NCBI GenBank assembly: GCA_022796015.1
Contig: JAAWHU010000002.1
Location: 1-64,000, forward strand
Source of the DNA: Hungatella sp.
GTDB lineage: Bacteria > Bacillota > Clostridia > Lachnospirales > Lachnospiraceae
Reading direction: 5' to 3'
Length of the DNA: 64,000 bases
Shown: piece by piece, positions 1 through 12,640 of the stretch
Position numbering within the stretch: the stretch's first letter is position 1
How the letters are laid out: every line of letters begins with the position of its first letter
Position numbers and translations under genes: made by a program
Notes under the pieces: generated by a model
What the model was told of the DNA's origin: nothing
What the model saw: the letters and a program-made list of their open reading frames with translations, nothing else
Databases searched by the model: none

Positions 1-218
1 CCCATAGCCTGAATCGCCATCTCCAGAGCCATATGCCCGTTCACCATGAGGGACAGCTCCGGCACATCCAGATATTCTTTTAATCTTGATTCCAGCTCCT
101 GATGATACTTTCCCATATTGGTAAGCCAGCGGCTGTCCCACAAAGGCTTTATGGCTTCTATGTATTCCTCATAAGGAGGCATGGAAGACCGGGTTACAAA
201 AATTTTATCTCCATTCAT
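1..218 (-). CDS. DegT/DnrJ/EryC1/StrS-family aminotransferase, N-terminal fragment
   Basis: The first 72 codons of a gene that leaves the window at position 1. The ATG at 218-216 follows a good AGGAGGA ribosome site about 9 nt upstream, and there is no stop. The translation (start MNGDKIFVTRSSMPP, then SRWLTNMG, then LMVNGHMALEMAI) matches the start of PLP-dependent sugar aminotransferases of the DegT/EryC1 type, where a short segment around S/TNxG precedes a conserved N-G-x-x-A-L patch. These enzymes aminate keto-sugar nucleotides during glycan synthesis. The PLP-binding lysine lies outside the window, so activity cannot be judged. With the next gene it suggests a surface or flagellar sugar locus. 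Confidence 0.75.
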   Translation of the reverse strand, partial: MNGDKIFVTRSSMPPYEEYIEAIKPLWDSRWLTNMGKYHQELESRLKEYLDVPELSLMVNGHMALEMAIQAM

Positions 219-370
219 ATCCACATTTCCTCCTGTCAACTGTCATTTTTCAGTCTGCTGCACAGCCCCTGATCCAGAATCTGCCACATTGCTTCCGTCC
301 TGCGCCCTGCCCTGACACAACTATCAGGCGCGAATATTCACCGTTACTTCCGCAATTCCATACCGGCAGA

Positions 371-1726
371 TCACCCCAATATCTCCACATCCTGTATCAT
401 CACCGGCTTCCCGGCCTCCTGACACAGCCTCACCAGAGAACTGTGATCCCCATAATAGGCGTCACACAGGGCAATGGCCCGGTCCATATCGGGCGTGTCG
501 TCATAGATTCCCCAGCCAGCCTCACAGTACTCCTTCACAATCCCCTCATACTCTTCCCACAGCTGAGGCCTCATAGCCTCTATGGTGGCCCGAATCAAGG
601 GATGAGGCCTCCACAGCAAGGCCACCTCACCGGCATTGTCCCGGAATACCCCAAGGGCATAGTTCATCTTGACAAGCATCCGCTCACTGTTCTGCAAAAG
701 CCCGGTCACGCTGGTATTGTAGAGGATAATCTTCTTCCAGCTGCCATCCGGCTTCTCAATCACCTTCTGCCACTCCTTCGGCACTTCCACATTCTCTTTC
801 CTGGTGCTTAAGACCTTATCCACCTTAGGCGACCCCAGCCCCAGAATCTTCCCGTCCCAGTACGCCCTGTCAGCCGATGTGGTCTTACTAAACTCTGTCA
901 GCACATCCACATAGATCTGCCGCATCTTCTCTGACTGTACAATTACCTTATCTGCATAAAGAACTGCCGGATTCGTGCAAAAATGCGCCATTCCTTCTAC
1001 TGCTTCTTTATTGTCCGGTTCTATCTCACCCAATATAAAATAAGGTATATATACTAATTGATCTGTATATTGTTTTAAATTCTTGGAATAAAAGAAAGGA
1101 TGAACACTGGTCAAATAGTTGCACTCATCATAGGGGTTATGTATAAAGATCATATCCGGCCTGTGGTGCTCAAAGTCGTAATCCTTATAGCTGGTTACCG
1201 GCACATAGTCCGGGTACAGATCACCCTCGTAGTGTTCCTCCCGAAAACTTCCATCTGGATTCTTTGTATAATATGGAATGGGAATCACATAAGCGTCGCA
1301 ATCCGGATCTTCATCTGCCGCTTTCCAGACGCTCTCAAGAGAATCCCACATAGATGCTTTATATGGAAGAAAGACCGCTTCCGTGCGGACTTTCATATCA
1401 TTTTTAATACTGTTTTCAACCTGAATCAGAGACTTGCGCAGGTTCTTGTAAGCCCGGCCTGCATTCATGGACTGTCCCTGACCTAAAAGCGCGTAGAGTT
1501 CATAGACGGTCTCGCAGTACCCCTCCAAAAGAGTGACTGTCACAAATCCTTCGCCCTCCGTCTCCTCTATGGTCTCGCCCAGATTAATGGCGCTTTCCTG
1601 ACACTGAGCCAGCAATTCCTGTGCACTTTCATACAGCCCCTTTTCTATGGCCCTTTTGATGCCCTCATGGACCTGGCCTAAGAGTCTTATAAGCTCCAAT
1701 GCCTGTTCCTTCTGTGCCTTCCTCAT
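371..1726 (-). CDS. CDP-glycerol glycerophosphotransferase-like protein
   Basis: A 451-residue soluble protein with no signal peptide. Residues 1-110 are helical and Glu/Leu-rich. The rest resembles a GT-B fold of the TagF/CDP-glycerol transferase kind: a FLPYKASMWDSLESV motif, an IPIPYYTKNPDGS segment, a FIHNPYDECNYLTSV loop, then a C-terminal half with ILYNTSVTGLL and a WRPHPLIRATIEAMRP motif (HP-x-(9)-RP is typical of the nucleotide-glycerol site), and YGDHSSLVRLCQEAGKPV at the end. The family assignment is from recognised motifs, not alignment. It follows the TnpB-like locus in the same direction and precedes the aminotransferase by about 150 bp, so a shared role in surface or flagellar glycan synthesis is inferred. 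Confidence 0.6.
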   Translation of the reverse strand: MRKAQKEQALELIRLLGQVHEGIKRAIEKGLYESAQELLAQCQESAINLGETIEETEGEGFVTVTLLEGYCETVYELYALLGQGQSMNAGRAYKNLRKSLIQVENSIKNDMKVRTEAVFLPYKASMWDSLESVWKAADEDPDCDAYVIPIPYYTKNPDGSFREEHYEGDLYPDYVPVTSYKDYDFEHHRPDMIFIHNPYDECNYLTSVHPFFYSKNLKQYTDQLVYIPYFILGEIEPDNKEAVEGMAHFCTNPAVLYADKVIVQSEKMRQIYVDVLTEFSKTTSADRAYWDGKILGLGSPKVDKVLSTRKENVEVPKEWQKVIEKPDGSWKKIILYNTSVTGLLQNSERMLVKMNYALGVFRDNAGEVALLWRPHPLIRATIEAMRPQLWEEYEGIVKEYCEAGWGIYDDTPDMDRAIALCDAYYGDHSSLVRLCQEAGKPVMIQDVEILG

Positions 1727-1759
1727 AGAATCCCGGTCTCCCTTTTACGTCTTTTTTTG

Positions 1760-2136
1760 AATAATATGGAATATTGGTCACCTAAAAGGTGATGCGGACA
1801 TTGCCGCTTCGCTCCCTGCTACGTCAGAATCTCCGGCAAAATCCCGAAGCTTCTGTTCCCAAGGTCCTGGCCTACCCAATGCGCAGGCGGGGGACATCCA
1901 TATGTCCTCATCCTGCCTTCTAATGCCGCATTCCTGCTGCCGTCTGATCATCCCACCGGGCGTTTTTTGCCCCGTGGCTCAGGCCGCTGCATTTTTTATA
2001 TCATGAACACATGATTCGGTCCTTTTTATGTCTTCTGTGATTCCAGAAAACCAGGTAAAATGCCGGCTTAACCGCCTTCATTTATCCGCTCATCTGTCCT
2101 TATGATCCATGATTTTTATATCTGTCTTTTCTGCCA
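1760..2136 (-). ncRNA. Candidate structured RNA (omega-RNA-like) downstream of the TnpB-like gene
   Basis: About 400 bp follow the TnpB-like stop codon with no convincing ORF. Read on the minus strand they hold a dense series of stem-loops: ATCATG-TGTT-CATGAT near 2010; CCAC-GGGGC around an A-rich loop closed by GCCC-GGTGG near 1950-1978; GGACAT-ATGG-ATGTCC near 1889-1904 inside a GCAGG/CCTGC stem; an 11-bp stem with two mismatches near 1822-1852; GCGG-CAATGT-CCGC near 1795; and TCACC-TTTTA-GGTGA at 1779-1793. TnpB genes are normally followed by their guide RNA, which ends in a variable guide. Position and folding fit that, but no guide boundary or target could be established here. Confidence 0.4.
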
Positions 2137-3531
2137 TCAGCCTTCCCTGCGCCCTCTGGCCTCTTCTCCCCGCCGCTTCACATTGCACGCGGCATTCTGC
2201 TTTTTGTCCGCCTTATATCCGCAGTAAGGACATGTAAATACATCTCCACCAGGAGCCCCCTGAGCTTCTTCACTCTGCCGGCCAGCATCACTGCCTTCCT
2301 GAGCCGCATTTCGTTTACCGGATATCCCGCCCCAGATCTCTTTGCATCGGCTGCAAGTCCTGCCTATATCCTTTGACGGCACCTCCACCAGTTCTATGGC
2401 CTGTTCCCGGCATTTTTGGGTCAGGCGGCTGCAGATATATCCCCTCTGCCATGTGGAAGCCAGATGGTTCATCTTCCTTGACGGCCCTGATGTGCCTGAC
2501 CTTGGAAGCCTGGGATAATAGACTGCCTTCGGCTTTTCTTCCTTTATAAAACGGTTCAGCTCCTGGTTAATATATCCGTGGAGCTGCCCGGTCAGCCGTT
2601 CTTTGTTGGCATAATACTTCTTTCTGCCTGGATTGGCCTGACGGTTCTGATTGTAAATAGTGCTCTGTTCCTGAAGCCAGTCGGAGAGCTTGGCCTGATA
2701 CCGGCCTAATTCTTCTCCGTATTCATGGCCCTCATCTGTCACCAGCATTGTCAGCATCCCAAAAGAGACGCCCACTCTTTTTTCGTGGTCTCTGTGCCCT
2801 TTTACCGCCACATCCACGGGAACCCTCAGTTCCACCCTGCTTTCTTCCGCAAAAAGGCGGATCTGAATCTGTCTTGTGTAAGTGTTGCCGTCTGTCAGAG
2901 GAATAAAGATTCGTTTCCTCTTTTCTTTTATGGAAATGTAAATGCCATGGTCTTTGTAGCGGTAAGCGCGCTCCGTCATGGAAAATCCTTTCACCTCATC
3001 GGTGTGAGGCGCTTTATGAAGCTTTCTCACCTGCCTGCACAGATAACCGTTTGCTTTTTCCACGTCCACATCTGCCGCAAGGGCATCGTAGTGACAGCGG
3101 ATCTCCTTGGGAAGATTGAGAGGGGAACCGTTGAGCACAGAATCTAAAGCATTGTTGACCTTAATCAGGTATCTGAGAAAATGCCTCTCCTCCTCTGTCA
3201 GGCCCTGATTCTTACTGATATTATTGAGAATCAAAGTTTTGGTTCTGGTCCACTGACTTTTGATGTCTCCCAGCGCCTCAAAAACTGCAAGGTAAAAATA
3301 GACGGAAGGCATCTTTAAGTTCTCCCTCAGGCCGCTGCGGGTCATCTCGTTCTGTATGGTGTAACCCGGGTAAAGCTTAGACAGGCTTCTGATCCCGCCA
3401 TAGCGCCGGTACACATAGTTCTTAACCTTACCATAGTCCTCCCCAATCTCCAAAAGCTTATCCATATCTTCCTTGGAGACAGGAAATTTATTGTATTGAC
3501 GGACAATCTTACACACAGTCTCCTGGGGCAT
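2137..3531 (-). CDS. TnpB-like protein with degenerate RuvC catalytic site (putative nuclease-dead, TldR-like)
   Basis: A 464-residue protein with the TnpB layout: helical/WED-like N-terminal half (residues 1-245), RuvC I at 252-262, bridge/linker helices 275-335, RuvC II at 335-343, a two-CxxC zinc finger (C393/C396 and C434/C437, with an unusually long 37-residue gap), and RuvC III at 441-451. TnpB and Cas12 use D-E-D. Here RuvC I reads VGVSFG (Ser256 for Asp), RuvC II reads VYYPRL (Pro340 for Glu), and RuvC III reads DKKQNAACN (Lys444 at the Asp position two before Asn). All three metal ligands appear lost while the frame and zinc finger remain intact, which argues against simple decay. 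The start has a GGAAGGTG ribosome site. The likely activity is RNA-guided DNA binding without cleavage, as in TldR repressors; this is inference. Confidence 0.75.
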   Translation of the reverse strand: MPQETVCKIVRQYNKFPVSKEDMDKLLEIGEDYGKVKNYVYRRYGGIRSLSKLYPGYTIQNEMTRSGLRENLKMPSVYFYLAVFEALGDIKSQWTRTKTLILNNISKNQGLTEEERHFLRYLIKVNNALDSVLNGSPLNLPKEIRCHYDALAADVDVEKANGYLCRQVRKLHKAPHTDEVKGFSMTERAYRYKDHGIYISIKEKRKRIFIPLTDGNTYTRQIQIRLFAEESRVELRVPVDVAVKGHRDHEKRVGVSFGMLTMLVTDEGHEYGEELGRYQAKLSDWLQEQSTIYNQNRQANPGRKKYYANKERLTGQLHGYINQELNRFIKEEKPKAVYYPRLPRSGTSGPSRKMNHLASTWQRGYICSRLTQKCREQAIELVEVPSKDIGRTCSRCKEIWGGISGKRNAAQEGSDAGRQSEEAQGAPGGDVFTCPYCGYKADKKQNAACNVKRRGEEARGRREG

Positions 3532-3568
3532 GTCACCTTCCTTTTTGACAATCCTCTCACATCTATTT

Positions 3569-3594
3569 GTCCCAAAAAGTGTACTTTTTGGGGA
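3569..3594 (+). repeat. Left recombination-site-like palindrome (site 1)
   Basis: A 26-bp dyad. Arms CCCAAAAAGT and ACTTTTTGGG (perfect over 10 bp, 3571-3592) flank a central GT dinucleotide at 3581-3582. Twelve-bp arms around a 2-bp core is the architecture of Hin/Gin invertase crossover sites. It lies about 40 bp upstream of the TnpB-like start codon, and also gives the mRNA leader a strong stem-loop without a U-tract. Confidence 0.7.
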
Positions 3595-3707
3595 ATCAAA
3601 ATTGGGGACAAAAACAAATATATTCTAATACAATATCGTCAAAAAATCAAGAAACTTAACGTCTTTTTCTGTCCAATTTGTTCCATAGAAAGGATTCCCC
3701 AAAAAGT
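3583..3707. other. Predicted invertible DNA segment carrying a promoter
   Basis: The stretch between two oppositely oriented, nearly identical 26-bp sites (positions 3573-3598 on the plus strand and 3693-3718 on the minus strand differ at a single base). It is much more A+T-rich than its surroundings, encodes nothing convincing, and contains a promoter that points at the TnpB-like gene in the present orientation. A Hin-type recombinase gene ends 8-10 bp beyond the right site. The non-palindromic GT core is in inverted orientation in the two sites, which is the arrangement that gives inversion rather than deletion. Inversion itself is a prediction. Confidence 0.65.
3622..3650 (-). promoter_or_regulatory. 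Promoter inside the invertible segment, facing the TnpB-like gene
   Basis: On the minus strand a -35 TTGATT (3650-3645) and a -10 TAGAAT (3627-3622) are separated by exactly 17 bp. Transcription would begin near 3615, cross site 1 and reach the TnpB-like start at 3531 with a leader of about 85 nt. Inverting the segment would turn the promoter towards the 3' end of the recombinase gene, antisense to it. Confidence 0.55.
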
Positions 3708-3721
3708 ACGCTTTTTGGATC
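3696..3721 (-). repeat. Right recombination-site-like palindrome (site 2)
   Basis: Inverted partner of site 1. Read on the minus strand it is CCAAAAAGC-GT-ACTTTTTGG followed by GGAATC, so the central GT and 25 of 26 bases match site 1. Its own dyad is slightly imperfect (C for T beside the core). It starts 8 bp past the stop codon of the recombinase gene. Confidence 0.7.
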
Positions 3722-3728
3722 ATTGATT

Positions 3729-4346
3729 TCACCGCCTTTTCCGCATCTTCCTCTCCTTCCACTCCTTCCCCTTCCTGTAAAACGTAGATGCAGGCATTCC
3801 GCACAGTTTTGCCGCCTGTCTTCCCGACATCTCGCCGGATGCCCATCTCCGGCATGTTTTGTCAAAATTCCTGGGGAGGGGATTGACCGGCCTTCCGAAA
3901 TGGACTCCCCGGACTTTGGCGGCTTCGATGCCTTCCCTCTGCCGTTCCCTAATATTTTTCCGCTCATTTTCGGCCACAAAGGACAGTACCTGAAGAACGA
4001 TATCACTTAAGAAGGTGCCCATAAGATCTTTCCCACGCCGGGTATCCAGAAGGGGCATGTCCAGAACCACTATATCCACCTTTTTCTCCCGAGTCAGCAT
4101 TCTCCACTGTTCCAAAATCTCTTCATAGTTGCGTCCCAGACGGTCAATGCTTTTTATGTACAGCACATCGTCTTCCCTCAGCTTTTTCATGAGGCGCATA
4201 TACATAGGGCGTTCAAAATCCTTACCTGACTGTTTGTCCACATAGATATTTTTCAGTGAAAGCTGCATCTGGGTAAGAGCCAGCAGCTGACGGTCTTCTT
4301 TCTGTTCCTTTGTGCTTACACGGGCGTATCCATACAAGTTGCTCAT
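3729..4346 (-). CDS. Small serine recombinase (Hin/resolvase type DNA invertase)
   Basis: 205 residues, the normal size for Hin, Gin and Tn3-type resolvases. The N-terminal catalytic domain begins LYGYARVSTKEQ, with Ser11 as nucleophile and Arg9 beside it, followed by the conserved IYVDKQSGKDFERP, the DRLGRNYEEI arginine-containing motif and GTFLSDIVLQVLSFVAENERKNIRERQREGI helix E. The C-terminal 45 residues (from HFGRPVN, then GEMSGRQAAKLCGMPASTFYRK) form a Hin-like helix-turn-helix. It lacks the N-terminal MerR-like domain of IS607 TnpA, so it is not a typical IS607 transposase. An AGGAGGA site precedes the ATG, and a GC-rich hairpin (near 4355-4382) overlaps the leader. Its closeness to the paired 26-bp sites makes it the likely invertase. 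Confidence 0.85.
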   Translation of the reverse strand: MSNLYGYARVSTKEQKEDRQLLALTQMQLSLKNIYVDKQSGKDFERPMYMRLMKKLREDDVLYIKSIDRLGRNYEEILEQWRMLTREKKVDIVVLDMPLLDTRRGKDLMGTFLSDIVLQVLSFVAENERKNIRERQREGIEAAKVRGVHFGRPVNPLPRNFDKTCRRWASGEMSGRQAAKLCGMPASTFYRKGKEWKERKMRKRR

Positions 4347-4454
4347 GGCTTCCTCCTTCTGGGCCGGCCGCCGGGCTTGACGGCCCTGGTATAATTAGTG
4401 CGGTTTGATCTTACCTGTTTCTGTTTTCGATGGCCATAAATGGATAATAAGAAG

Positions 4455-4497
4455 TAAAAAAAAGAGCCGGGAATCTCATCTCAGGATTCCTGGCTCT
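4455..4497 (-). terminator. Intrinsic terminator
   Basis: On the minus strand AGAGCCAGGAATC pairs with GATTCCCGGCTCT (one mismatch) and is followed by a run of eight T. It is the second terminator after the sugar-binding protein gene and insulates the recombinase from the operon upstream. Confidence 0.8.
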
Positions 4498-4625
4498 GTA
4501 AAATAAAAGATTGGGGGGGATAATTGAAATCCGATATAGTAATAGGCAGTCCCATACCTGCTCCTTTTGGTATCTCACCATCTTCCCCATCATTTTAACA
4601 GATAAAAGCCAAAAATAAAAGGCGT

Positions 4626-4662
4626 AAAAATGCAGCCCCTTTCTTTTTGTGAAAGCGGCTGC
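4626..4662 (-). terminator. Intrinsic terminator of the sugar operon
   Basis: On the minus strand GCAGCCGCTTTC pairs imperfectly with GAAAGGGGCTGC and is followed by ATTTTT. It lies about 20 bp past the stop codon of the solute-binding protein. Confidence 0.75.
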
Positions 4663-4681
4663 TCTTTCTGACAAATCAGTT

Positions 4682-6361
4682 TTATTTCCCTTCAAATTCC
4701 TCAATAATCTCTTCCAAGGGCTTCAGCTTCTCCAGCTCATCCATCATGCGGTTATAACCCAGGCGGTCAAGCTCCGCCAGATAGCTGTCCCACGTGGCAT
4801 CCACGTTGATCTGCCCTAAGACGGCCTGGGTTCGGTAGTTGGATACATAGGCCTCCAAATCACTGTTGATCTCCTGCTTGATGATCTCATAGTCTGTCTC
4901 GCCGGCCAGATCCTCTTTGTAAGGCCTGTGCTGCCATTTCATCCATACGCCATCATCACTCTCAGACCAGTATTTGCTTCCTGCCTTAAAGAGGGGTTCC
5001 TCGCCGATCCATCCCGTAACCTTCTTGGTCTGGCCGAACTGGCTGAAACTCCATGTCCCCTTTTCCCCGGACTTTAAGACATTGATCTTTACAGGCGTTT
5101 CACCGGACTCGTCCCATTTCCAGTCAACATCCTTCTCCCCCATGAACATGGCAGCCGTCACATCCGTGTTGTCGCTGCCAAACAGGGTATAATCTACGAA
5201 CTGTAAAATTCTGGCCAGTTTGCCGTCGTCTACGTTGGCATTGACATAGAACTTTCCGTAGGCCGGGGAAGGATTCACCGTAGCGCTCACTTCACCGCCA
5301 TCTGGCTTTATCCCCGGCGTCATAAGGATTTTGGCATTGGGATCTCGCTCCATAATGGTGAGGGGCGGACGGTCGGAGGCCCAGCTGTTTAAGGCGTTGG
5401 TGGATGTGATCCAGTATCCGGCTACGCCTGTATTTACCTTATCCCAGGCAACGTTTCTGTCATTGTTGATGATCTCAGGATCCAGCAGATTCTTTCCGTA
5501 CAGCTCCTGGAACCCTTTTAAGAAATCCTTGTATTTCTCCATGGCATAGTACTGCTCTGCCCTTCCCTTCTGATTGTTGATCCCCGTATTGAATCCGTAG
5601 GCGGAAAAGAAGGCTCCCTGGGCAATGTTGGGATTGGTTGCTCCTCCCACGGCTCCTATGGTATCATTCTTGCCTGTGCCATTGGGATCCTTGTTGACAA
5701 ATGCATCCATGATCTCCATGAATTTGCTTAGTTCGATCCCATCGTCAGCCACATAAAGCCTGTCCGACACCTGCTCCACGTTAACGCCTAAGTCGATTCC
5801 CAAATTCTCGATCCAGTCATAGCGGTAGAAATCTCCAGGAAGATAGTAGTCCACGAACTGGAAGGTCAGGCCTGTCAGGTAGATAAACTCATCTTCATTT
5901 TCCGGATTTAAGGTCTGTTTGTACAGGAGCGGATACTGGTCGTAATGCTCCATAAGCCTGGGACAGTACTTCTCTGCCATTTCCCTTGGAATGGTGCGGA
6001 TCAGCTCCTGCTCCCTCATCCAGCTGGGTGTCTTTACCTCCGTCCACATGCAGTCCGGCATCTCCCCGGAAGCCAGCAGAAGATCCACTGTGTCCGATGT
6101 CTCCGCTTTCTCCACGGTCAGATTAATATTCAGGGCATCCTCGATCATCCTTTCCACATAGGAGCCATCCTCATAGTCCGCATAGCACCACTGCCCTGTA
6201 TAAGTGATGTCATAGGTCTTTTCAGGATCTTCTTCCCCGCTGCTTCCTCCCTTTTGGGACTCTCCCGAGCTGCCGGAGCCTCCCGAATCCCCAGAACACC
6301 CTGACAGTACCAGAGACACCCACAATCCTGCTGCCAAAACTCTCTTAATATGTTTTCTCAT
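4682..6361 (-). CDS. Extracellular sugar-binding lipoprotein (ABC transporter, YtcQ/LplA type)
   Basis: A 559-residue secreted lipoprotein. The signal peptide ends in a lipobox (LVLSGC, Cys22), followed by a Gly/Ser/Glu-rich tether to about residue 50, then a family-1 solute-binding fold. The segment KDPNGTGKNDT near residue 225 matches the D-x-N-G-x-G-x-x-D motif common in the large YtcQ/LplA binding proteins that work with LplB/YtcP permeases. GAAAGGAG precedes the start. It is the last gene of the minus-strand operon that begins with the beta-galactosidase, separated from the sialidase-like gene by a short MITE-like repeat. It probably captures an oligosaccharide or glycan fragment for the two permeases; the ligand is not readable. 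Confidence 0.85.
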   Translation of the reverse strand: MRKHIKRVLAAGLWVSLVLSGCSGDSGGSGSSGESQKGGSSGEEDPEKTYDITYTGQWCYADYEDGSYVERMIEDALNINLTVEKAETSDTVDLLLASGEMPDCMWTEVKTPSWMREQELIRTIPREMAEKYCPRLMEHYDQYPLLYKQTLNPENEDEFIYLTGLTFQFVDYYLPGDFYRYDWIENLGIDLGVNVEQVSDRLYVADDGIELSKFMEIMDAFVNKDPNGTGKNDTIGAVGGATNPNIAQGAFFSAYGFNTGINNQKGRAEQYYAMEKYKDFLKGFQELYGKNLLDPEIINNDRNVAWDKVNTGVAGYWITSTNALNSWASDRPPLTIMERDPNAKILMTPGIKPDGGEVSATVNPSPAYGKFYVNANVDDGKLARILQFVDYTLFGSDNTDVTAAMFMGEKDVDWKWDESGETPVKINVLKSGEKGTWSFSQFGQTKKVTGWIGEEPLFKAGSKYWSESDDGVWMKWQHRPYKEDLAGETDYEIIKQEINSDLEAYVSNYRTQAVLGQINVDATWDSYLAELDRLGYNRMMDELEKLKPLEEIIEEFEGK

Positions 6362-6391
6362 GATAATCTCCTTTCAACTCTCTGCAACCTT

Positions 6392-6472
6392 AGGTAATTG
6401 CCAAACTCAAAACTTGGCCGAATATTCTGCCCATATCTTACAGGAAAAGACCTTTGACTTTCGCAATCACCT
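6392..6472. mobile_element. MITE-like palindromic repeat, copy 1
   Basis: An 81-bp unit with terminal inverted repeats AGGTAATTGCCAAACTC and GACTTTCGCAATCACCT, containing the internal landmark GAATATTCTG and the phrase ACAGGAAAAGAC shared with the copies near 48.6 and 50.2 kb. It has no coding capacity. It sits 3 bp past the stop codon of the sialidase-like gene. Confidence 0.7.
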
Positions 6473-6475
6473 GCT

Positions 6476-7552
6476 CTACAACCTGGAAAGCTCTTTTCTG
6501 GGAATCCTCCTGATTCTGAGGCTGGACAGACAGTTCCCATCCTCCGGCCCCCCTGCACAATACCCGAGGAGCAGGGCGCTCTCCGTAAAATACATGGCAC
6601 AATAGCAGTATCCGTGATCCTCCTCGGTCTCAAAAGGGATTTCCTCGCCGAATGTCTTTCCATTATCATGGCTTACAGCCAGCACAAGAGGAGTCCTTCC
6701 TCCCGTAAAGATCTCTGTGGTCTTTTTTCTCCCATTGTATTCCGGCACCGGATTCCACACAGCGTAGATATCCTTTGTCTTCTGATCCCGCTTCATGCTT
6801 AAGGGGCTGTTGGGCGCCGTGAACCGGGAGGGCTGGGCTCCGGTCCAGGTATTTCCGTTATCCATGGAATACATCTCATACTGCCTTCCCAGGTCCGTCC
6901 TTGCAAATCCCCACAAAACCCCCGGATACAGCTCAAGAACTCCCGGCTCCTGAAGCCCTGAGCTGCAGTGTGTCAGGTGGGGCATGGAGCATTTGCCCTC
7001 TGCTGCCTTCCAGGTGATCCCGTCGTCATCGGAATAGAAGAACATGGCCTCCGACCGGCTGTCAAATCCAAAGTCTCCGGTTCTGTGGCAGGCTGCCGGA
7101 ATCAGAATCCTTCCGCTTGAAAGCCTGACCACCCTGTCATTGTTCACCACAAAAAATCCCTCCTGAGGCGTGCAGTTCACCCGCTCCCCCCAGGTCTTCC
7201 CCTCGTCCTTTGACCGTCTCAAAAACATCATTGTCTTGGTGTAGGTGCATCTGGCCAGATAAAACAGGCCCAAATCTCCGTTCTTCATACGCATCAGAGA
7301 AGCGCACATCACATTTACCACATTCTCCTCCTCGTAGTCCACAACCTTTTGGTCCCCGTAAAAGGTCCTGCCGCCATCCTCCGATACCGCCATACAGATA
7401 TCCGCGGGAGCCCAGTCCGCATAGCTTTTTCCCCTGTACTTGCTGTAGGCAAAGGCGATAGTTCCGTCCTTTCGTTTCAGGAAGGCCCCCTCGCTGTTTC
7501 TGGGATTCTCCTTATCCGGCCGAAAATCCGCCGACACACTTCCTAATTCCAT
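6476..7552 (-). CDS. Asp-box (BNR) sialidase-like protein, cytoplasmic
   Basis: 358 residues without signal peptide or membrane segment. Five Asp-box motifs (S-x-D-x-G-x-T-F/W) are visible: SEDGGRTF, SKDEGKTW, SDDDGITW, SMDNGNTW and SHDNGKTF, which define a six-bladed sialidase-type beta-propeller. Early residues include FRPDKENPRNSEGAF, where the RxP motif expected of true sialidases is not clear. It could be an exo-sialidase or another propeller glycosidase acting on imported sugar. It lies 17 bp downstream of the permease in the operon, so it acts with the transporter and beta-galactosidase. AAGGAT precedes the start. Confidence 0.75.
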   Translation of the reverse strand: MELGSVSADFRPDKENPRNSEGAFLKRKDGTIAFAYSKYRGKSYADWAPADICMAVSEDGGRTFYGDQKVVDYEEENVVNVMCASLMRMKNGDLGLFYLARCTYTKTMMFLRRSKDEGKTWGERVNCTPQEGFFVVNNDRVVRLSSGRILIPAACHRTGDFGFDSRSEAMFFYSDDDGITWKAAEGKCSMPHLTHCSSGLQEPGVLELYPGVLWGFARTDLGRQYEMYSMDNGNTWTGAQPSRFTAPNSPLSMKRDQKTKDIYAVWNPVPEYNGRKKTTEIFTGGRTPLVLAVSHDNGKTFGEEIPFETEEDHGYCYCAMYFTESALLLGYCAGGPEDGNCLSSLRIRRIPRKELSRL

Positions 7553-7569
7553 CTTTTTTATCCTTCTTT

Positions 7570-8478
7570 CTATCCTTTTACTGCTCCCACCATGATTCCT
7601 TTTACAAAATACTTCTGAAGGAATGGATACACTGCCACAATAGGCAGAACCACAATGATGGTGGTGGCCGCTTTTATGGTGTCCGGGTTAGCGTCCACCA
7701 TGGAGCCTATGGCCTCCACTCCTCCTGAGGATGCGGAGTTGGCCATGGTGTCCAGCATTCTCCTGAGAAGATACTGGAGGGTAGTGAGGCTGGCGGTCCT
7801 TCTGCAGTACACCATATTGTCAAACCATGCGTTCCACTGCCCTACCATCTGCCACAGAGCCACCGTAGCGATAACCGGTTTGGAAAGGGGCATGATAATG
7901 GAACTGAATATTCTTACCTGGGAGGCCCCGTCGATGCTGGCCGCCTCCTCCATCCCCTTGTCTATGGAGAAGAAATAGTTCCTAATAATAATCGTATTGT
8001 AGATGGAAAATCCTGATGGCAGGATGTACACCAGAAAATTATTGAGAAGCCCCAGCCGCTTCATGTTCAGATAGGCCGGAATCATGCCGGCGGAGAAGAA
8101 CATGGGGATCAGCAGCACTGCCGTAATAAATTTCCTAAAGGGCATCTCCGTCCTGGTGAGGGCATAGGCAGCCATACAGCATACCAGGGCATGAACCATG
8201 GTTCCCGATACGGTTCTCAATATGGAAATGACAAATGCAGTAATGATCTCACTGTCCTGAAAGCACTGCTTGTAGGCATCCAGGGTCCAAACCTTTGGCA
8301 GAACATTAATGTGCATATAAGATATATCCTGGGCTCTGGAAAAGGAACGCACCACCACATCCCAGAAGGGAATCAGTATGGTAATGCAGAACAAAACCAT
8401 AAATACGGCGTTGCAGATGTCAAAGGCTTTGCTTCCTGCAGACTGCTTCATCTTTCTTCTTGGTTCCTCGTGTGCCAT
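7570..8478 (-). CDS. Carbohydrate ABC transporter permease (YtcP/LplC type)
   Basis: 302 residues, six predicted membrane helices beginning with FDICNAVFMVLFCITILIPF. The cytoplasmic EAA loop reads EEAASIDGASQVRIFSSIIMPLSKPV, typical of MalG-class sugar permeases that contact the ATPase. The C-terminus KYFVKGIMVGAVKG is characteristic of the YtcP/LplC subgroup. Translation starts at an ATG behind GGAGGTAG. Only 12 bp separate it from the upstream permease gene. No dedicated ATPase is encoded here, which is normal for this subgroup: a shared MsmX/MsmK-type ATPase elsewhere in the genome probably powers it. Confidence 0.9.
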   Translation of the reverse strand: MAHEEPRRKMKQSAGSKAFDICNAVFMVLFCITILIPFWDVVVRSFSRAQDISYMHINVLPKVWTLDAYKQCFQDSEIITAFVISILRTVSGTMVHALVCCMAAYALTRTEMPFRKFITAVLLIPMFFSAGMIPAYLNMKRLGLLNNFLVYILPSGFSIYNTIIIRNYFFSIDKGMEEAASIDGASQVRIFSSIIMPLSKPVIATVALWQMVGQWNAWFDNMVYCRRTASLTTLQYLLRRMLDTMANSASSGGVEAIGSMVDANPDTIKAATTIIVVLPIVAVYPFLQKYFVKGIMVGAVKG

Positions 8479-8490
8479 AGCTCTACCTCC

Positions 8491-9429
8491 TTAGATAATC
8501 TTATATTCCGGGTTTGCCTTTCTGGCAAACCAGTTGGCGAACAGCACCAGCGCCAGACTCACCACGTTCTGGAACAGTCCGATGGCTGTGGAGAAATCAT
8601 ACCTGCTTTCCACCATACCTTTCCGGTACACATAGGTGGAGATTACATCTGCGGTCTGGTAGGTGGCGTCATTGTATAAGTTGAACACCGGGTCAAATCC
8701 CACGCTTACCAGGCTTCCGATATTTAAGATCAGCATGGTGCACATGGTGGGAAACATGGCCGGCAGGGTTATGTAGAGGATTCTGTGAAACCGGTTAGCT
8801 CCATCAATGCTGGCCGCATCATACATGGTCGTGTCAATTCCCGCAATGGTAGCCAGATAGATGACGATGCTGTACCCCGTGGATTTCCACAGGTTGGTGA
8901 TCAGATAGATGGGCACAAACATATCCTTCTGAGCCATAAAGTACAGAGGCTTTTCCAGAATGCCCAGTTTTATGAGGATGGCATTAAACACGCCCCCCGT
9001 AGGCGACAAAAGCTGATATACAAAGGTGCCTACCACAACCCAGGAGAGAAAATGGGGCATATAGGTGATGGTCTGAACCACACTTTTAAAGCGCTTACTG
9101 GCAATCTCATTGACCAGAATGGTAAAGACAATGGTCACCGGAAATGTAGTAAGCAGAGTCAGAATACTGATCTTTAAGGTATTGCCCAGAACCCTGTAAA
9201 AATTCGGGTCCGAGAACAGGGCATGAAAATGCTTCAGCCCCACCCAATCGCTGCCTTCGATTCCTCTTGCCATCTTATAGTCCTTAAAGGCGATGGTCAG
9301 TCCTTCCATAGGCATGTAGCAGAATAAAATCACAAGAATCAGGGCCGGAAGGAGAAACATATAAAACGGCAGATATTTCCGGATCTCTTTTAACAGCCCT
9401 TTGTTTCCCATAGTTTTTGTTTTACCCAT
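8491..9429 (-). CDS. Carbohydrate ABC transporter permease (LplB/YteP type)
   Basis: About 312 residues from the ATG at 9429, chosen because AAAGGAA lies 8 nt upstream; an in-frame ATG at 9468 would add 13 residues with a poorer ribosome site. Six membrane helices begin with YLPFYMFLLPALILVILFCYMP. The EAA loop reads MYDAASIDGANRFHRILYITLPAMFP. The segment FKDYKMARGIEGSDWVGL near residue 60 and the closing FARKANPEYKII are hallmarks of the LplB/YteP family. It pairs with the YtcP-type permease downstream and the YtcQ-type binding protein. Confidence 0.9.
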   Translation of the reverse strand: MGKTKTMGNKGLLKEIRKYLPFYMFLLPALILVILFCYMPMEGLTIAFKDYKMARGIEGSDWVGLKHFHALFSDPNFYRVLGNTLKISILTLLTTFPVTIVFTILVNEIASKRFKSVVQTITYMPHFLSWVVVGTFVYQLLSPTGGVFNAILIKLGILEKPLYFMAQKDMFVPIYLITNLWKSTGYSIVIYLATIAGIDTTMYDAASIDGANRFHRILYITLPAMFPTMCTMLILNIGSLVSVGFDPVFNLYNDATYQTADVISTYVYRKGMVESRYDFSTAIGLFQNVVSLALVLFANWFARKANPEYKII

Positions 9430-9511
9430 ATAGCGTTCCTTTCTTTTAAAGCTGGTTGGCTTTGCCATAACAGTTGCCGCGCTCCCGGGTGCGCTTTATA
9501 TTATCTGTTCC

Positions 9512-12640
<3,129 letters not shown>

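Follow-up and report, generated by a model that had tools for sequence, protein, structure and literature searches.

The window, a stretch of 64,000 nt from a bacterium with Lachnospiraceae relatives, carries close to its start a Hin-type serine recombinase gene, a pair of inverted recombination sites enclosing a promoter, a gene for a RuvC-dead TnpB-like protein, a conserved structured RNA and two glycan-type genes (Table 1). The earlier note had confined the system to 3531..4346. The switch and the recombinase do lie there, but that interval omits the TnpB gene, the RNA and the downstream glycan genes. The recombinase reading frame is uninterrupted, as the note had stated, and encodes a small serine recombinase whose C-terminal HTH is indicated only by a weak HTH_psq match (0.0012, residues 170-199) just under its cut-off. 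Against the NCBIfam Mpi model the protein scored 40.4 bits, below the cut-off of 272 for that family.

Table 1 Features of the locus in the window.
Feature	Position	Strand	Basis or remark
DegT/DnrJ/EryC1 sugar aminotransferase, gene start	3..218	-	Cut by contig end; Pfam 3.5e-5
Predicted glycan enzyme, 451 aa	371..1726	-	Recurrent neighbour of TnpB family
Predicted guide stretch, directly 3' of scaffold	1748..1767	-	Boundary inferred; position by analogy with omegaRNA
Conserved structured RNA core (omegaRNA-like scaffold), six helices	1762..1929	-	Covariation; model R1 match 120.1 bits
TnpB-like protein, RuvC triad lost (TldR-like), 464 aa	2137..3531	-	Pfam Cas12f1-like_TNB E 3.7e-8
Recombination site adjoining TnpB gene	3569..3594	.	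GT core on + strand; inverted repeat and shuffle test
Predicted invertible segment	3595..3695	.	Inverted sites; relatives carry segment in both orientations
Promoter TTGATT-17-TAGAAT	3622..3650	-	Conserved spacer TTTTGACGATATT...; ON towards TnpB gene
Recombination site adjoining recombinase gene	3696..3721	.	AC core on + strand; inverted repeat and shuffle test
Hin-type serine recombinase (invertase), 205 aa	3729..4346	-	Pfam Resolvase E 4.8e-30, residues 5-148

A repeat search of the window identified inverted arms at 3572-3597 and 3693-3718 that are complementary at 25 of 26 nt (96%), and CCAAAAAGNNNNCTTTTTGG occurs exactly at 3572-3591 and 3699-3718. Chance does not account for the pair: the mean expected number of copies of CCAAAAAGNNNNCTTTTTGG is 0.05, and two or more copies arose in 0 of 100 dinucleotide shuffles. 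One site has GT as its central dinucleotide and the other AC, a compatible combination as required for inverted sites, and the sites start 127 bp apart, an arrangement of the Hin/Gin type. Many relatives have a symmetric AT core instead. The promoter is of general sigma type and matches its motif with 0 mismatches; the motif search of the window's own genome gave 0 control hits. Within a limit of 6 mismatches, the motif is present in 17 of 19 compared segments and absent from those of L004 and L058. The paired palindromes, their GT core and the promoter pointing to the TnpB gene had all been described in the earlier note and hold up; its arms of ~12 bp do not, the perfect dyad extending about 10 bp per arm.

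Comparison with other loci argues for inversion of the segment. A strict scan covered 40 upstream regions at 38 places, since L060 coincides with L113 and L062 with L115; it detected the site pair at 18, with the promoter directed towards the operon at 6, away from it at 10 and unclear at 2; among block-shuffled control regions, 0 of 800 had a pair. Since pairs recur with the promoter both ON and OFF, against none in the shuffles, inversion is well supported at the level of assembled loci. Five further places have a pair missed by the strict rule: L103 (ON), L104 and L106 (both OFF) by a looser site pattern, L010 (OFF) by reading the sequence, and L005 (OFF, promoter with 6 mismatches) by a repeat search. 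No pair was present at 15 of the 38 places, one of which, G326:C74, is cut by a contig end. The upstream regions of L059 and L099 have a promoter match without a site pair, and those of L009, L015, L044, L046-L049, L051, L054, L061, L100 and L115 have neither. Two pairs of loci have neighbouring genes in common, and in each pair the segments can be aligned only when one of them is inverted (scores 65.0 vs 4.5 and 40.0 vs 0.5). Both states also occur within the window's own genome, in which C93 is ON and C148 and C116 are OFF. Thus, both orientations expected of a Hin/Gin-type switch are seen between relatives and between loci when assemblies are compared, as the note had proposed to check. Strict exclusivity, with one ON locus per genome, was considered and rejected: the assemblies of G307 and of G008, a genome with five loci, show two ON loci each.

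Start-to-start spacings in the 18 strict pairs were 127 (11 pairs), 137-138 (4), 146, 149 and 167 bp, values that approximate whole helical turns (P 0.02, computed on the distinct spacings). A search for the sites in the own genome matched 9 places, against 3 for the control. Of 5 site loci in the own genome, 2 have a contig end within 100 bp (P 0.0008, with a cut-off picked after the fact), as do 2 of 7 when two weaker matches are counted (P 0.0016). A recombinase homologue of at least 57% identity is present in 16 of the 18 genomes that have the TnpB family and in 10 of the 26 that lack it (Fisher P 0.0014, for a threshold picked after seeing the list, with partial matches counted and kinship ignored). 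The recombinase and TnpB genes are adjacent in three loci (the window, L005 and L058). The earlier note would have abandoned its reading had both genes been kept without the sites; an inverted pair lies between them in 3 of 3, with a different site sequence in L005. At most loci the recombinase is not beside the TnpB gene (0 in L096-L115).

The TnpB-like protein shows TnpB homology and the TnpB/Cas12f fold, and the loss of its RuvC catalytic residues, already noted for the window protein, extends throughout a conserved family, as in TldRs. We aligned it with the 120 listed of its 1660 homologues. In all 121 aligned proteins the first RuvC position is S or A, never D; residues 337-343, spanning the second, are without E; and the third is K, R or G, never D. 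The third motif was anchored via profile alignment to AsCas12f, and the first two positions were placed by motif. The same 121 of 121 retain long stretches without variation and the full set of four zinc-ribbon cysteines. Decayed tnpB copies were observed at G307:C75, G008:C62 and G332:C42. A phage origin was considered and set aside, as only three distant Thermus phage records (22-23%) and one viral contig (47%) were retrieved.

The RNA was described by model R1, built from 16 copies including that of the window. In the alignment, 96.7% of cells are paired and 22 of the 31 pairs show two-sided changes (shuffles: 0 of 500), compared with at most 43.4% and 11 pairs in slid controls. The model gave 31 matches in 17 of 18 genomes, 27 of them just 3' of a long TnpB homologue; a guide RNA scaffold of this kind thus accompanies the gene, as for TldRs, at 27 of the 29 places with a long homologue in the 18 genomes. 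In G307, three loci have the switch, the RNA and glycan genes without tnpB, and one has tnpB without the RNA. Because of these RNA-only switch loci and the solitary tnpB, protein and RNA probably meet in trans, as judged from gene content. Three sub-threshold Rfam matches in window positions 1-12000 were taken as chance.

The operon runs on past tnpB and the RNA into glycan-type genes. The 451-aa predicted enzyme matched no Pfam family; its AF2 model (pLDDT 79.4) had as best Foldseek matches sugar-nucleotide 2-epimerases (E 1.9e-6, with a TM of only about 0.3). The partial aminotransferase shares 82% identity over 71 aa with that of L005. A coarse motif scan of 30 loci detected no CsrA- or flagellin-like ORF.

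Collectively, these results point to a DNA-inversion switch in which a Hin-type invertase likely turns a predicted RNA-guided regulator on or off jointly with a predicted surface-glycan operon, a reading to which we assign a probability of roughly 0.6. Relatives carry both orientations and the promoter leads into tnpB, RNA and glycan genes; therefore, regulator and sugar coat are likely switched together. The earlier proposal of an ON/OFF switch for TnpB is supported by comparison as far as the invertible segment goes but is incomplete: in the ON state the promoter would serve predicted glycan genes as well, and some loci have the switch in front of RNA and glycan genes with tnpB missing. Flipping would be performed by the neighbouring recombinase. 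The dead TnpB and the RNA may form a complex that acts as a repressor on guide-matched DNA, with rival surface genes as its most likely targets, such that a cell switching one coat on would turn another down. Each flippable locus would supply its own guide, and the protein could come from any tldR copy in the genome. We extend this, tentatively and at somewhat less than even odds, to a phase-variable, RNA-guided exclusion of glycans, in which an ON flip would yield the locus guide together with its glycan genes, and a shared dead TnpB, whose gene is present at some loci and which RNA-only loci would use in trans, would silence rival coats.

RNA-guided repression remains a proposal because searches for guide targets came up empty. 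In the own genome (88.6% complete), the 20-nt guide of the window, the one guide searched genome-wide and one with inferred limits, had no second match within 3 mismatches. For 24 guides, matches to their own upstream regions were not in excess of those to the regions of other loci, and in sibling loci the best 16-nt matches of 20 guides resembled those of 12 shuffled guides each. The idea that the guide targets the invertible segment itself, hinted at by a 10-nt guide/segment match AAAAAGACGT, was discarded, as 4 of 23 other upstream regions match as well or better. The 12-14-nt matches in G307 between the 3' end of one RNA and the -10 region of another locus were set aside as AT-rich and not recurrent, and the sequence after the C148 RNA, considered as a target, resembles the start of a separate small-RNA family instead.

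These empty searches fit an alternative that we regard as unlikely, namely that the dead TnpB binds the RNA in cis while the leader of the glycan operon is being transcribed, and thereby regulates transcription elongation or translation of this operon in the manner of the UpxY antiterminators of Bacteroides (a precedent in PMC7315117), the stretch after the scaffold being no guide. Indeed, the RNA sits in the leader before the next operon gene at the examined loci, even where tnpB is missing, and the scaffold is followed by a nearly constant TTATT. Against this, the protein is a TnpB with its RNA in the omegaRNA position, the next start codon lies at widely differing distances from the RNA (about 20 to over 150 nt), and the dead TnpBs of tested function in PMC13418256 act on DNA. 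That the switch controls the glycan operon alone, with TnpB and RNA as decaying transposon passengers of little function, is quite improbable: at the syntenic locus G004:C7, tnpB, RNA and sites are missing although the recombinase, the promoter and the glycan gene are retained, C116 is a same-type switch with neither tnpB nor RNA, and some tnpB copies have decayed, but the strong RNA covariation, the invariant stretches and zinc-ribbon cysteines of the protein (121 of 121 aligned) and the three loci that retain RNA without tnpB speak otherwise. A static segment, with the sites as regulator operators or remnants and the orientations due to ancient rearrangement, could accommodate the relatives lacking sites but is very improbable given otherwise similar loci that differ in orientation, both states inside one genome, phased spacing with contig breaks at sites, and the pair in 3 of 3 loci with the recombinase next door.

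If the switch jointly controls regulator and glycan operon as we favour, RNA-guided transcription control by domesticated TnpB would widen from flagellin to predicted surface glycans and would be coupled to DNA inversion at several loci per genome. It would also provide natural cases of guide RNA and dead TnpB being separated, so that commensal bacteria would allow a direct test of what the RNAs target and of whether they restrict a cell to a single coat.

The locus can be compared with several known systems. The Salmonella Hin/hix flagellar switch comprises a small serine recombinase and a promoter flanked by inverted dyad sites of ~26 bp, each with a 2-bp core. The present locus shares these elements, but its segment is ~100 bp and its recombinase gene lies outside. 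Mpi is an invertase of Bacteroides, and the recombinase here differs from it in falling below the Mpi model cut-off. In PMC7315117, Bacteroides UpxY/UpxZ loci likewise include several surface-polysaccharide operons, some with invertible promoters and the regulator gene first, and UpxZ acts on sibling capsule loci; that regulation uses an antiterminator and an inhibitor protein, whereas a dead TnpB with an RNA is found here. According to PMC13418256, flagellin-clade TldRs of Enterobacter prophages are also RuvC-dead TnpBs with a guide RNA, domesticated beside non-transposon surface genes; the present system is instead chromosomal as far as seen, probably phase-variable and glycan-linked. These dead TnpBs set a precedent for the RNA-guided part of our reading. 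The same source (2026) describes csrA-tldR loci linked to flagellin in Flavonifractor plautii and relatives, preceded by hin and by promoter inversions of ~120 bp; at a locus whose own tldR is broken, the guide RNA is suggested to work in trans. The shared features are a nuclease-dead TnpB with its guide RNA, preceded by a Hin-type invertase gene and an invertible promoter segment of ~120 bp, and several loci per genome. The differences are that predicted glycan enzymes replace linked csrA and flagellin (csrA/fliC linkage was absent from the 30 scanned loci), that the window promoter is TTGATT-17-TAGAAT rather than FliA-dependent, and that RNA-only switches exist. The claim of novelty in the earlier note is therefore partly pre-empted by the csrA-tldR inversions, while the glycan-linked combination of invertible promoter and dead TnpB is new with respect to the open-licence literature.

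The window locus lies at the start of contig C93 of its own genome assembly (G000; 3.71 Mb, 163 contigs, 88.6% complete). The arrangement described in the earlier note, in which inverted sites, an enclosed promoter and an adjoining recombinase stand upstream of a TnpB-like gene, was recovered in full, and the site pair exceeded chance in a shuffled-sequence control.

Features of the window locus
Feature	Position	Strand	Remark
Hin-type serine recombinase	4346-3729	minus	first in transcription order
Site on recombinase side	3721-3696		inverted partner of 3594-3569
Promoter TTGATT-17-TAGAAT	3650-3622	minus	
Second site, tnpB side	3594-3569		between promoter and tnpB
TnpB-like gene	3531-2137	minus	
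Structured RNA	1929-1762	minus	
Predicted glycan enzyme	1726-371	minus	
Sugar aminotransferase, start only	218-3	minus	cut by contig end

A promoter of the same type, with the conserved spacer TTTTTGACGATATT, sits between paired sites upstream of homologues and occurs in both orientations. A strict uniform scan, reaching as far as 700 bp upstream, covered 40 regions from which other duplicates had already been taken out; as L060 and L113 are one place, and L062 and L115 likewise, these make 38 distinct places. Site pairs were detected in 18 of the 38 places versus 0 of 800 block-shuffled regions. In keeping with the inversion proposed earlier, the promoter points towards the downstream operon (ON) in six of these places and away from it (OFF) in ten; two (L004, L058) have no assignable direction. 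Five further places carry pairs missed by the strict rule: a looser site pattern found L103 (ON), L104 and L106 (both OFF), reading of the sequence found L010 (OFF), and L005 has 23-nt arms, 96% complementary, of another site sequence around an OFF promoter match with six mismatches. By strict scan, looser pattern, reading and repeat search, the other 15 places showed no pair; one (G326:C74) is cut by a contig end, L059 and L099 have a promoter match only, and 12 have neither. The segments of L105 and L109, and likewise of L110 and L106, can be aligned only after one is inverted; each couple shares a neighbouring gene, with other genes intervening in one member. Within G000 itself, the window locus is ON, those at C148 and C116 OFF. 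Site spacings of 127, 137–138, 146, 149 and 167 bp fall in steps of about one helical turn (P = 0.02, six distinct values). The sites of many relatives (L101, L105, L111 and others) have an AT core, which, being self-complementary, would permit deletion besides inversion; those of the window have GT and AC.

Several contigs break at or near sites, as judged by a 100-bp cut-off set afterwards. In G000, C80 stops 1 bp beyond a site and C159 starts 88 bp ahead of one; in G326, one contig stops 4 bp beyond the site that precedes tnpB and another starts 22 bp away from the recombinase. Mixed orientations would be expected to leave breaks of this kind.

The adjoining recombinase is the obvious candidate for flipping the segment. 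It adjoins tnpB at three examined loci (window, L005, L058), with an inverted pair separating these genes in every case, so that no such locus keeps both genes with the sites gone, the case against the switch named in the earlier note. The tie between recombinase and switch is strengthened because L005 and L058 also have inverted pairs. The site at L005 (5783-5947) is of a different, AAATAAAGCATAGTTTTTT type, and site sequence and recombinase may therefore have changed together there. At the other examined loci, including all 20 of L096–L115, the recombinase is not beside tnpB. Recombinase homologues sharing 57% identity or more were present in 16 of the 18 genomes that carry the TnpB family and in 10 of the 26 that do not (Fisher P = 0.0014, by a test that ignores kinship, with a threshold picked after viewing the list and two partial matches counted). 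Another switch with this promoter type, its sites 127 bp apart, lies at G000:C116:8117-8263 (L038), OFF, its promoter directed away from the adjoining 91-aa ORF and 1282-aa protein with a secretion-like start; contig C116 has neither tnpB nor RNA match. Taken together, the non-adjacency, the co-occurrence and the C116 switch indicate that the recombinase probably serves several loci. A second recombinase (49% identity) at G000:C74:36336-37001 (L040) is accompanied by a GGGAAAAACCCATAGGTTTTTCCC palindrome where the contig ends; this may be a further invertible segment.

The TnpB-like protein has 1660 homologues at E 1e-3. Its distribution is uneven: it was present in 6 of 26 genomes of the genus and in 9 of 299 sampled across the taxonomic family. 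Across the window protein and 120 listed homologues of the 1660, the RuvC-I aspartate is replaced by Ser or Ala, the RuvC-II stretch 337–343 has no glutamate, the RuvC-III aspartate is replaced by Lys, Arg or Gly, and all four zinc-ribbon cysteines are retained throughout. The RuvC-III position was anchored by profile alignment to AsCas12f; RuvC-I and RuvC-II were assigned by motif position, which we take to be as in known TnpBs. These substitutions agree with the loss of catalytic residues predicted earlier. Structure prediction gave a model of modest quality (pLDDT 68.8), with TnpB and Cas12f as best matches.

A recognisable RNA 3′ end was present at 24 loci, 16 of which were aligned; seven were left out for length and L051 for an unrecognised 5′ end. 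RNAalifold indicated six helices, with 96.7% of cells paired and changes on both sides in 22 of 31 pairs; 0 of 500 shuffles matched this, and slid controls did not exceed 43.4% and 11 pairs. When 150 candidates were scored in each genome, the model built from the 16 aligned copies identified 31 matches, spread over 17 of the 18 genomes. Directly 3′ of a long TnpB homologue lie 27 of them, filling 27 of 29 such places (including a G220 homologue with one in-frame stop, excluding three decayed places); the long homologues at G307:C30 and G330:C1 lacked an RNA match. Another copy lies at a decayed tnpB (G307:C75). The last three, all in G307 (L096, L097, L098), have no tnpB: paired sites, a promoter (ON, OFF, ON) and the RNA precede, respectively, genes of nucleotidyl transferase and SIS type, of glycosyl transferase type, and of cytidylyltransferase and NeuB type. 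The scaffold is followed by a near-constant TTATT and then variable sequence, the predicted guide. These RNA-only switches suggest that each locus would supply its own guide and that the protein would be shared among loci.

In a separate small-RNA gene family, TATAAT precedes ACGTARGCAATGAGCAGTGC, which is followed by a long hairpin and a tail of the CATAGGGCGAAGCCC type; five genomes of the genus have about three copies each (in G000, C70:24292, L125; C126:50346, L130; C163:55115, L135). None of the five loci tested reached the gathering threshold of an Rfam family. What follows the C148 RNA is similar to the start of these small RNAs.

The gene directly after the window RNA has no Pfam family; its modelled product is similar to sugar-nucleotide 2-epimerases, with a low TM-score. 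Among the families represented downstream in relatives are DegT aminotransferase, CTP transferase, nucleotidyl transferase, NeuB and SDR. The syntenic G004:C7 retains the flanking gene, recombinase, promoter and glycan gene (77–88% DNA identity) and lacks tnpB, RNA and both sites; from this single comparison, the TnpB–RNA module appears to be gained and lost along with the sites. A pair of genes recurs after the RNA (L111:6849-8579, L102:1-1375, L112:3890-5474, L115:1919-3616), encoding, as judged by eye, a ~180-aa product containing a membrane-like stretch and another of ~370 aa whose start is secretion-like; the two L111 proteins have no Pfam family. At L007, L103 and L107 the glycan enzyme ORF is ~850 aa, with a second domain of ~400 aa.

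We propose that inversion of the segment would determine whether tnpB, the RNA and the glycan genes are expressed, and that protein and RNA would form a complex of the TldR (TnpB-like nuclease-dead repressor) type. In our leading reading, this complex is predicted to repress competing surface genes. Guide target searches of upstream regions of loci, the own genome and sibling loci were negative, and two genomes have two ON loci simultaneously; a cis role for TnpB and RNA in the operon leader, as with UpxY, therefore keeps some weight, at odds we consider rather unfavourable. That TnpB and RNA are decaying passengers beside a glycan switch is improbable, slightly more so on a further check.

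The RNA-guided part of our preferred reading has a precedent. The earlier note knew of no described parallel, and this claim holds only in part: the combination of a dead TnpB with an invertible promoter is known, since a published study reports hin and ~120-bp promoter inversions upstream of flagellin-linked csrA–tldR loci (PMC13418256). As far as our searches of the open-licence literature show, the linkage to glycan genes, the promoter family common to several loci and the RNA-only switches are new.
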